Below, piece after piece: positions 11,142 through 52,909 of a stretch of DNA of 64,000 nucleotides. The notes under the pieces were generated by a model. It saw nothing but the letters and a program-made list of their open reading frames with translations. It did not search any database and was not told where the DNA came from. The translations under genes and the position numbers were made by a program. Source of the stretch: Solwaraspora sp. WMMD792 (GTDB lineage: Bacteria > Actinomycetota > Actinomycetes > Mycobacteriales > Micromonosporaceae); assembly GCF_029626105.1 (NCBI RefSeq), contig NZ_JARUBH010000009.1, positions 3,348,001 through 3,412,000 of the forward strand, read 5' to 3'. The first letter of the stretch is position 1. The number at the start of each line of letters is the position of its first letter.

Positions 11142-11768
11142 ATGGCACGACGCACCGGCCGGCGACCGGGCAACCCGGACACCCGCGAGGCGATCCTGAC
11201 CGCCGCCCGGCAGGTCTTCGGTGAACGCGGCTTCGACCAGGCGTCGGTACGCGCCATCGCGGCGGCGGCCGGCGTGGACCCGGCGCTGGTGCACCACTAC
11301 TTCGGCACCAAGGACAACCTGTTCCTGGCCGCGATGGACGCGCCGGTGGATCCGGGCGAGCTGCTGCCGCAGGCGCTCGCGGGCGGGCCCGAGGAGGTCG
11401 GCGAACGGCTGGTCCGACTGGTGCTGGGGGTCTGGGACTCGCCGGCCGGAGTGGCTGCCCTGGCGCTGCTGCGGTCGGCGTTGACCAACGACTGGACCGC
11501 CCGGCTGATGCGCGAGTTCGTCACCACCCAGATCATCCGACGGGTGCTCGGTCAACTCGACCTGGACCAGGCGGAGCTGCCGGTCCGGTCCGCCCTGGTG
11601 GCCTCGCAGATGGCCGGCCTGCTGGTGGTCCGGTACATCCTGCGGTTGGCACCGCTGTCCACCATGGCGGCCGACGAGGTCGCCGCAGCGGTCGGTCCGA
11701 CGATCCAGCGCTACCTGACGGGGCCGCTGACCGCAGCGGCCGGGGCGGCCGAGACGACGTCGGGCTGA
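11142..11768 (+). CDS. TetR/AcrR-family repressor
   Basis: A 208-residue regulator with an N-terminal helix-turn-helix (about residues 14-60: TREAILTAARQVF, then VRAIAAAAGV and LVHHYFGTKDNLF) and a helical ligand-binding C-terminal domain. It is 28 bp behind the permease, so it is probably co-transcribed with the exporter it regulates. The A/T-rich inverted repeat at 9568-9609 is the natural candidate operator for autoregulation. Confidence 0.94.
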   Translation: MARRTGRRPGNPDTREAILTAARQVFGERGFDQASVRAIAAAAGVDPALVHHYFGTKDNLFLAAMDAPVDPGELLPQALAGGPEEVGERLVRLVLGVWDSPAGVAALALLRSALTNDWTARLMREFVTTQIIRRVLGQLDLDQAELPVRSALVASQMAGLLVVRYILRLAPLSTMAADEVAAAVGPTIQRYLTGPLTAAAGAAETTSG

Positions 11769-11784: not shown

Positions 11785-12534
11785 TCAGGCGGCGGCCGGT
11801 GGAGCGCAGCGCCGGCAGAGCACCGGGTGCAGCAGACGGGCGAGTTCGGCGCGGTCACGTACCGGGGCCGGGAAGGCCAACCGGGCGCGCGGTCCGTGCG
11901 GGCCGAGCGCGACCACGAACCCGTACCGGTCCATCCGGACGACCTGCGGATCCCCGGCCAGCGACCGGTGACCGGCGTCGCGCAACTGCCGGCGGATGAA
12001 CGCGGTCATCTCGGCCCGGTGGTGGTCGGCGAGGTCGACGAGCAGCTCTGACTCGATGGCGCCGATCGGGTCGGGCTCGGCGGCGGCGTACTCGTCCGGG
12101 TCGACGTCGATGGTGACGCCGCAGCGTTCCAGCCGGACCTCGGCCACCTCCATCCGGTACAGGGTGGCACCCCGGCCGACGTCGAGCAGGTCGGGGCAGG
12201 CGTGCACGTCGGCGAAGTCCAGCGCGGCCATCCGGGCGGGGGCACCGTCGAGCGGGCCGACCCAGCCGGACACCCAGACCCGGCCATGGGTCGGCGAACC
12301 GGCCACCGGCGGCACGTCGGCCACTTCCAGCACCACGGCGGTGTCATCGGTGCCGGCGACCGGCCGCAGCGCGCCGTCGAGCAGGTCGGACCCGGTGGCG
12401 AGCAGCAGGATCCGCCCCATCGGGTCGGTCGCGTGCCGTACGGCGTGCGGTCCGGGGCGGCAGGCGACATGCGCCATGCCGGGCAGCCGGCCGGATGCCA
12501 TCGTCCGGGCGATCTCCGCGGGACTGGGCTGCAT
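11785..12534 (-). CDS. DUF2470 protein, probably iron-regulated
   Basis: 249 residues. The C-terminal ~90 residues (from about 155: IGAIESELLVDLADHH, then MTAFIRRQLRDAG and VVRMDRYGFVV) match the DUF2470 domain found at the end of haem-utilisation (HugZ-like) proteins; the N-terminal part resembles the split-barrel part of such proteins. Cytosolic handling of haem or iron is therefore an inference from family and regulation. The ATG has CGGAGGT 8-9 nt upstream, and a 14/19 IdeR-box match lies 17 bp before the start. It diverges from the rpsD paralogue. Confidence 0.8.
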   Translation of the reverse strand: MQPSPAEIARTMASGRLPGMAHVACRPGPHAVRHATDPMGRILLLATGSDLLDGALRPVAGTDDTAVVLEVADVPPVAGSPTHGRVWVSGWVGPLDGAPARMAALDFADVHACPDLLDVGRGATLYRMEVAEVRLERCGVTIDVDPDEYAAAEPDPIGAIESELLVDLADHHRAEMTAFIRRQLRDAGHRSLAGDPQVVRMDRYGFVVALGPHGPRARLAFPAPVRDRAELARLLHPVLCRRCAPPAAA

Positions 12535-12550
12535 GACACGGACCTCCGAG

Positions 12551-12569
12551 ATCAGTTAGGCTCACCTTA
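12551..12569. promoter_or_regulatory. IdeR/DtxR-like iron box 1
   Basis: The 19 bp here agree with the palindromic DtxR/IdeR consensus TTAGGTTAGGCTAACCTAA at 14 of 19 positions (15 if position 18 is W). The box lies 17 bp upstream of the DUF2470 gene. Confidence 0.7.
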
Positions 12570-12570
12570 G

Positions 12571-12589
12571 TGAGGGCAGGCTAACCTAC
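12571..12589. promoter_or_regulatory. IdeR/DtxR-like iron box 2
   Basis: TGAGGGCAGGCTAACCTAC matches the DtxR/IdeR consensus at 15 of 19 positions, with a perfect right half. Its centre is 20 bp from that of box 1, and it ends 19 bp before the rpsD-like start, where a repressor would block transcription. Confidence 0.8.
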
Positions 12590-12608
12590 TGAACCCGGAG
12601 ACGTCCAC

Positions 12609-13220
12609 GTGAACCACCCACGACCCAAGGCGCGAATCTCCCGCGCCCTCGGCATCCCGCTGACCCGCAAGTGCACCCGGTACTTCGAGCGGCGCCCGTA
12701 CCCGCCCGGCGTGCACGGCCGCGCCCGCCGCAAGCCCTCCGACTACCAGGTACGGCTGCTGGAGAAGCAGCGCCTGCGGCACCAGTACAACGTCAGCGAG
12801 ACCCAACTGCGGCGCGCCTTCGACGACGCGGTACGCGGCACCGGCAAGACCGGCGAGGCCCTGGTCACGTTGCTGGAGCGACGCCTCGACGCGATCGTGC
12901 ACCGGGCCGGCCTGGCCCGCACCATCTACCAGGCGCGGCAGCTCGTCGCCCACGGCCACTTCACCGTGGACGGCCACAAGGTGGACCGGCCGTCGTACCG
13001 GCTGCGCCCGGGTCAGGTGGTCCAGGTCCGGGAACGCAGCCGGACCAAACCGCCGTTCCAGATCGCCGCCGCAGGGGCGCACGTCGGCGAGGGGCCGGGT
13101 GCGCCGTACCTGTCGGTCAGCCTCACCGAACTGACCGCGACCCTGGTCCGCGAGCCCGCCCGCCGCGAGGTGCCGGTCATCTGCGACGAGCAGCTGGTCG
13201 TCGAGTTCTACTCCCGCTGA
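12609..13220 (+). CDS. rpsD: 30S ribosomal protein S4, zinc-free paralogue
   Basis: A 203-residue S4: an N-terminal S4 domain ([11 protein letters not shown], then [15 protein letters not shown]), the RNA-binding S4 motif ([27 protein letters not shown]) and an EFYSR-type C-terminus. The cysteine cluster at the N-terminus of zinc-binding S4 proteins is missing; only one cysteine is near it (TRKCTRY). In actinobacteria such C-minus forms occur either as the sole S4 or as an extra copy. The stand-alone setting outside the rpsM-rpsK-rpsD-rpoA operon and the two iron boxes upstream suggest an extra, conditionally expressed copy. Start GTG with GGAG 8 nt upstream. Confidence 0.92.
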
Positions 13221-52186: not shown

Positions 52187-52210
52187 GGCAGGCGAGGTCC
52201 TCAGGTCAGG

Positions 52211-52909
52211 CTAGCCCAGGCTGAAAAATCCACCCTCGGCTATCTTGGCCTTGTCCTCCGCGGTGACCTGGACGTTGGCCGGTGAGAGCAGAAACACCCG
52301 GTTGGTGACGCGTTCGATCGTACCGCGCAGACCGAACGCCAGACCGGCAGCGAAATCAACCAGACGGCGGGCGTCGGCCTCATCCATCTCGGTGAGGTTG
52401 ATGATCACCGGCGTGCCGTCGCGGAAGTGCTCCCCGATCGTCCGGGCCTCCCGGTAGGTGGTCGGGTGCAGCGTGGTGATCTGGTACCGCTGCTCCTCCT
52501 CGGCGACGACCATCCGCTCCCGCACCACAGGCTGTGGCGCCAGAGCCAGATTGTCCCTGGTCGGGTAGCTGGCCGGCGCGGCCTCGGCACCGGCCCGGGT
52601 GATCGATCGCACACTGGCACGCTCACCCCGGTCGGGATCCGGACCCCGGTGCTCCCGCTCGGCAGCCCGGTGCTCCCGCTCGGCAGCCCGGGCCTGCAGC
52701 CGCTCCGACGGGCGCAGCCGCTCCACCGGTGGCCGCGCGCGTGGTGGCGGGTCGTCCGGCTCCTCGTCGTCGGCGAACTCGTCGGCGTACCTATTGTCGC
52801 GGTATCGCGACTCTCGGTAGCCACCCTTGTCGTAGCCATCGTCGTAGCCCTGGTCGTCGTCCTCCTCGACCAGACCTAGCCAGACCCCCGCTTTGCGCAG
52901 TGCACCCAT
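52211..52909 (-). CDS. sepF: Cell division protein SepF
   Basis: 232 residues: amphipathic membrane-binding N-terminus (GALRKAGVWLGLVEE), a long disordered Asp/Tyr/Arg-rich linker with a repeated AEREHR unit, and a C-terminal SepF domain (YREARTIGEHFRDG, PVIINLTEMDEADARRLVDFAAGL, RVFLLSP) that binds FtsZ. In actinobacteria, which lack FtsA and ZipA, SepF anchors the Z-ring. The ATG at 52909 has GGAGGGG 7 nt upstream; a longer frame lacks this. Confidence 0.95.
   Translation of the reverse strand: MGALRKAGVWLGLVEEDDDQGYDDGYDKGGYRESRYRDNRYADEFADDEEPDDPPPRARPPVERLRPSERLQARAAEREHRAAEREHRGPDPDRGERASVRSITRAGAEAAPASYPTRDNLALAPQPVVRERMVVAEEEQRYQITTLHPTTYREARTIGEHFRDGTPVIINLTEMDEADARRLVDFAAGLAFGLRGTIERVTNRVFLLSPANVQVTAEDKAKIAEGGFFSLG

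Follow-up and report, generated by a model that had tools for sequence, protein, structure and literature searches.

A window of 64,000 nucleotides from Solwaraspora sp. WMMD792 (contig NZ_JARUBH010000009.1, positions 3,348,001 to 3,412,000) carries a gene for a cysteine-free (C-) paralogue of ribosomal protein S4 (uS4, rpsD), and in front of it two predicted iron boxes of the type bound by the repressors IdeR and DtxR. Such a box precedes the C- S4 gene in 108 of 112 loci from genomes with two S4 genes (two-S4 loci), which belong to eight families, and was found at 0 of 25 genes for the cysteine-containing (C+) form. We consider it fairly probable that this arrangement is an iron-sparing ribosome switch, in which Fe-loaded IdeR would repress C- S4 and a cluster-free uS4 would replace the C+ form under iron limitation. 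The locus in the window is composed of the features listed below, where all box scores are matches to TTAGGTTAGSCTAACCTAA, which we take to be the 19-bp DtxR/IdeR consensus.

12551-12569, no strand assigned: predicted IdeR/DtxR-type iron box 1, ATCAGTTAGGCTCACCTTA, 14/19 against the consensus.
12571-12589, no strand assigned: predicted IdeR/DtxR-type iron box 2, TGAGGGCAGGCTAACCTAC, 15/19.
12535-12608, no strand assigned: divergent intergenic region with both boxes, 74 bp from start to start.
12609-13220, plus strand: C- paralogue of ribosomal protein S4 (uS4, rpsD), GTG start, TIGR01017.
11785-12534, minus strand: DUF2470-like gene, divergent to S4 and having the iron boxes in common with it, PF10615.

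An original prediction, made from the letters of the window, had described two iron boxes with centres 20 bp apart in the gap between the divergent starts, and their presence, scores and spacing were confirmed. Four places with at least 14/19 matches occur in the 64-kb window, against a mean of 0.02 in Markov-shuffled windows, and no pair of boxes 15 to 25 bp apart was obtained in 200 Markov shuffles. The other two places, both 14/19, are located at 13112-13130 (within the S4 gene) and 52201-52219 and are without evident meaning. Box 2 has the same sequence in all seven genomes of the genus and the place of box 1 holds a site of 14 or 15/19 in all seven; both S4 genes are likewise present in each of them.

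The assignment of the neighbouring gene as an S4 without the zinc-binding cysteines was borne out by a full-length uS4 match to TIGR01017 (residues 5-203, 208.7 bits against a cut-off of 177.2), by the Pfam domains Ribosomal_S4 and S4, and by the lack of a CxxC...CxxxxC motif, while two other cysteines (in KCTRYF and VICDEQ) are kept. A genome search for a second, cysteine-containing rpsD beside rpoA had been suggested as a check, and such a gene was found at G000:C9:6602720, between the genes for S11 (rpsK) and RNA polymerase alpha (rpoA); the window copy is not the only rpsD of this genome. This canonical S4 carries CxxC-x13-CxxxxC and shares 42% identity with residues 25-203 of the window protein. 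In another genome, the C- and C+ genes lie on one strand with about 2 kb between them (G020:C1:980295-983558).

An alignment of the canonical S4 with the sequence of chain 1i94_D places its four cysteines at those of Thermus uS4, without any gap in between. The Steitz group is reportedly the first to have assigned an Fe4S4 cluster to Thermus uS4. The cluster was confirmed at the zinc finger of this protein by Rozov et al. in 2019 (PMC6555806), and a paper of 2023 states that the Thermus ribosomal protein carrying an iron-sulphur cluster is uS4 and that C- forms are made when zinc is lacking (PMC10450194). Since the same Cys4 site holds Fe4S4 in Thermus uS4, iron wiring suits S4 itself, and by analogy the actinobacterial C+ S4 may hold an Fe-S cluster as well. 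Of the earlier description of the missing cysteines, the absence of the motif therefore stands, whereas their role is probably not simply that of zinc ligands.

In order to count box conservation, a box was defined as a site of at least 14/19 located from -200 to +30 of the S4 start. A search in 121 genomes of the family (Micromonosporaceae) contributed all 88 C- S4 loci among the matches listed, nine of them in genomes without a second S4, and a search of the class in 295 genomes contributed 33 loci from confirmed two-S4 genomes outside the family and 73 loci of genomes with a sole S4. Outside the family the sole-S4 status was checked by TIGR01017, while for most family loci the second S4 rests on match counts among the matches listed, with a recheck by TIGR01017 for nine single-S4 and six two-S4 genomes of the family and by Pfam for the genome of the window (G000). 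The C+ cysteine motif was seen in the 25 C+ genes, and elsewhere the C+ form was judged by match length or identity. Two genomes whose second S4 was only partial or split (G395 and G212) were left out before counting. The 108 boxed two-S4 loci comprise 75 of 79 in the family and all 33 outside it, from seven further families, with the centre of the best box at a median of 35 bp before the S4 start (interquartile range 28-41, range 18-128, n=108). In a set of 80 named loci, which overlaps the main set and in which the second S4 was checked for 40, the box was present at 17 of 19 two-S4 and 4 of 21 sole-S4 loci.

A candidate repressor is present in the genome of the window as a single PF02742 match, a protein of the IdeR/DtxR type with the domains PF01325 and PF02742 (Fe_dep_repress and Fe_dep_repr_C), FeoA and DtxR SH3. 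The known DtxR, IdeR and DmdR1 systems likewise combine a 19-bp palindrome with a DtxR-type repressor. Iron boxes with at most three mismatches occur at 11 places in this genome, in comparison to none for a reversed control pattern. Large frames were inspected near nine of the 11 sites, the other two being a duplicate and a second site of the same gene. The frames near these boxes include a siderophore-interacting protein (SIP), HtaA, a periplasmic binding protein (Peripla_BP_2), an ABC ATPase, a pyridoxal-dependent decarboxylase and an MFS protein, which more or less fit iron uptake, as well as an ABC ATPase with a TOBE domain, a PmbA/TldD peptidase and a frame without a Pfam match, which are not obviously iron-related. 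The gene for the siderophore-interacting protein is present twice with an identical iron box (G000:C1:15405 and G000:C9:2529635; L100 and L102), and the HtaA-domain gene has two upstream iron boxes 91 bp apart (G000:C9:7030361 and 7030452; L106 and L107).

With these components the switch would operate as follows. If iron is plentiful, Fe-loaded IdeR would bind the boxes and repress both C- rpsD and the divergent DUF2470-like gene, and the housekeeping rpsD of the rpsK-rpoA cluster would supply uS4 with four cysteines holding [4Fe-4S]. If iron is scarce, IdeR would release the DNA and the cluster-free uS4 would be made, so that new 30S subunits would not spend four iron atoms each and would need no Fe-S assembly. 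Binding by IdeR, repression as the sign of control, derepression at low iron and the exchange in the ribosome are what we infer from the sequences. In several lineages a C- homologue is the only S4 and must work there as uS4.

Alternatively, the box might serve only the divergent gene, with a function in haem or iron use, and S4 might be a bystander, a possibility that we regard as unlikely. The original prediction had named this gene as encoding a DUF2470 protein; the match to PF10615 was recovered (E 0.0037), at 18.2 bits and so below the Pfam gathering score of 22. The DUF2470-containing gene Rv3839 of Mycobacterium tuberculosis responds to low iron by IdeR-dependent induction and has a putative upstream IdeR site (PMC13258150). 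Its likeness to the window gene, which is DUF2470-like and has IdeR-type sites in front of it, is one by description, the window gene lying below the Pfam cut-off, and no mention of an S4 gene with Rv3839 was seen in the available part of that paper. With a profile made from relatives of the window gene, a divergent DUF2470-like gene was detected at 162 of 273 loci, 25 C+ loci included. Next to such a gene the box is present at 120 of 121 C- loci (main set, 194 C- loci in all), and there the box scores of two-S4 and sole-S4 loci do not differ, with boxes at 104/104 and 16/17, respectively (p = 0.40). Moreover, six of 15 family genomes with only a C+ S4 contain a DUF2470-like relative, and all six relatives have a box before them (14-16/19 in five, 17/19 in one; L300-L305). 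The box thus tracks the DUF2470-like gene, and the crude correlation with two S4 genes is therefore largely carried by that gene. Because the groups do not differ beside it, the raw contrast of 108/112 and 18/82 boxed two-S4 and sole-S4 loci cannot be used alone, and the weight rests on the loci without this neighbour and on the question of which loci sit in the module.

Where S4 does not lie beside a DUF2470-like gene, the box is present at 4 of 8 two-S4 loci versus 2 of 65 sole-S4 loci, the latter two with exactly 14/19; at a threshold of at least 15/19 the counts are 4/8 versus 0/65 (Fisher p = 6e-5, with relatedness ignored). One of the four boxed genomes brings in a further gene of the window:

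11142-11768, plus strand: TetR-family regulator (Pfam TetR_N and TetR_C_16), probably outside the S4/box system.

In G023 a TetR-like frame similar to this gene has its end within the box region in front of S4, and the DUF2470-like gene lies elsewhere with a 17/19 box of its own. In G020 a methyltransferase-like frame lies upstream of S4, and a search of the genome at E 1e-6 gave no relative of the window DUF2470-like protein. In G408, where the box reaches 18/19, about 120 bp separate S4 from the end of an upstream tRNA-Met gene, and a relative of the DUF2470-like protein was again not found. G121, with a relative elsewhere and a short divergent frame at S4, is a less clean case. These four genomes argue against a bystander role of S4, as does the observation that C- S4 adjoins the DUF2470-like gene at 104 of 112 loci where it is a paralogue and at 17 of 82 where it is the sole S4. 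In the sole-S4 genome G036 the box stayed with the DUF2470-like gene, 461 bp from S4. From the neighbour-free boxed genomes, the persistence of the paralogue beside the DUF2470-like gene and the separation of box and S4 in G036, it is concluded that S4 is probably also a target of the boxes, besides the DUF2470-like gene. Distances speak only weakly on this point: over 68 loci the median distance of the box is 36 bp to the S4 start and 42 bp to the other one, which does not separate the two genes, and the ten of these loci outside the family show ranges of 26-56 bp to S4 and 36-125 bp to the other start.

In addition to this dependence on the neighbour, several observations weigh against the proposed switch. 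The two boxes of the window, with only 14 and 15/19, score below the best site at most related loci, and all 11 places with at most three mismatches in the genome are stronger. Binding of IdeR to 10-bp half sites and its activation of some genes have also been reported (PMC8464063), so that weak sites could be relevant and control might be positive instead of negative. Four two-S4 loci are without a box (L061, L067, L076 and L097), all of them in the family and three in one genus (g23), and so are 2 of the 19 named two-S4 loci, one of which has a site of 13/19. In G058, a member of g23, a DUF2470-like gene with a 17/19 box was observed next to a divergent frame (L309) that consists of C- S4-like ends with the middle missing, and the genome has a further, box-free C- S4 at a different place (L067); the original C- S4 copy of G058 looks decayed.

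The converse case, a box at a sole S4, was found at 18 of 82 loci. In f17, the family of Streptomyces-type S4, 9 of 27 sole-S4 genomes have a box at S4; in f13 a box of 18/19 is present in 2 of 4; and in f15 there are 18 sole-S4 loci with 12-15/19, seven of them with at least 14. The sole S4 genes behind boxes of 16-18/19 are L149-L153, L156, L189, L192 and L200 in f17 and L143 and L144 in f13. Nine f15 loci (L165, L312, L316-L320, L322 and L325) share a degenerate 13/19 box, e.g. CTAGGCCAGCCTTACCTGG, starting 50-63 bp upstream of S4; a DUF2470-like neighbour was not found at these loci, and the shared site suggests decay or alteration. Boxed sole-S4 genomes had been predicted to contain a C+ gene overlooked by the class search, which scored at most ten candidates per genome. 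This prediction failed in all of the eight genomes concerned (0/8; G131, G148, G405, G231, G152, G371, G364 and G258), and a ninth boxed genome, G317, has a single S4 too. As a sole S4 cannot be switched off, the box at such loci would have a weak effect, control the neighbour or be left over from an earlier state, and these loci count against a strict on/off reading.

In a tree of 79 chosen S4 proteins the 12 C+ rows formed one clade (support 100), while sole-S4 and two-S4 loci were mixed; C+ loss and box loss thus seem to have happened several times. A larger tree provided only five supported independent contrasts, with a mean of 3.9 in the expected direction and 0.0 in the other (median p = 0.125), which are too few for significance.

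As a further alternative, the C+ S4 could bind zinc, and the C- copy could serve to spare zinc or to meet metal stress in general, its wiring to IdeR being accidental, which appears quite improbable. Zur control of C- S4 was rejected for lack of Zur-like sites upstream: at the 112 two-S4 loci, the window included, no site matched what we take to be the Zur consensus at more than 10 of 15 positions. The search was not blind, since the same consensus gave 14 places in the genome versus 4 for the reversed pattern, including sites close to ZnuA and ABC-3 genes. The zinc explanation draws on the known Zur-controlled C- paralogues of S14, S18, L28, L31, L32 and L33, with which S4 was classed in a study of 2009 (PMC3087516) and to which the present case is similar in having a cysteine-free paralogue behind the site of a metal-sensor repressor. 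It differs from them in that the site at S4 is of the IdeR/iron type, that no Zur site is present, and that the partner protein is an Fe4S4 holder in Thermus (PMC6555806), which also speaks against zinc as the metal of C+ S4. The 2009 study itself reported Zur sites at other ribosomal paralogues of Salinispora and none at the S4 copies (PMC3087516). Control by iron rather than zinc is supported by the predicted boxes at 108 of 112 two-S4 loci, the lack of Zur sites and the single IdeR/DtxR-type repressor; against it stands the confounding of the box with the DUF2470-like neighbour. Overall, the original interpretation, a C- S4 under iron control, is partly supported.

S4 is a fidelity protein. 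On these grounds, and with clostridial C- S4 copies reported as up-regulated in sporulation (PMC3087516), low iron might induce C- S4 to alter decoding or to make specialised ribosomes and not to spare iron, but this is improbable, as a C- homologue is the only S4 in several lineages and so works there as an ordinary uS4.

With regard to earlier work, the 2009 study of C+ and C- S4 treats the site as zinc, the word iron occurring 0 times in the main text as available, and its three actinobacterial genomes with two S4 copies, explained there by recent transfer, compare with 112 two-S4 loci here, 108 of them boxed (PMC3087516). Among the open-access matches listed, no ribosomal protein paralogue was found as a target of DtxR, IdeR or DmdR1, and no iron-controlled S4 paralogue appeared in titles or abstract openings. 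In the available text of a DtxR prediction rpsD occurs only within a long predicted operon (PMC524172), and rpsD and ribosomal protein are absent from the main text of a DmdR1 regulon paper of 2025 (PMC12161575). Ribosomal paralogues without metal that are controlled by a metal sensor are known as a kind, while this combination of metal, sensor and protein appears to be new.

Beyond the single locus, we lean slightly towards the view that Actinobacteria run an iron-sparing ribosome programme, in which IdeR would derepress cluster-free uS4 and new small subunits would be made without the [4Fe-4S] cluster. The S4 duplicates, for whose regulation the 2009 study had no link to Zur (PMC3087516), would thereby also gain a function. 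If true, such a programme would stand beside the Zur/zinc switch as its equivalent for iron, and it would be a physiological indication that outside Thermus, too, the uS4 cluster is a genuine cofactor with a real cost. Ribosomal paralogues without metal are known from the biology of zinc; a conserved one under iron control, at the very ribosomal protein that has an iron-sulphur cluster in Thermus, would add iron to the metals on which the ribosome economises. As the organism would supply both S4 forms together with the switch, the importance of the uS4 Fe-S cluster in vivo would be directly testable.
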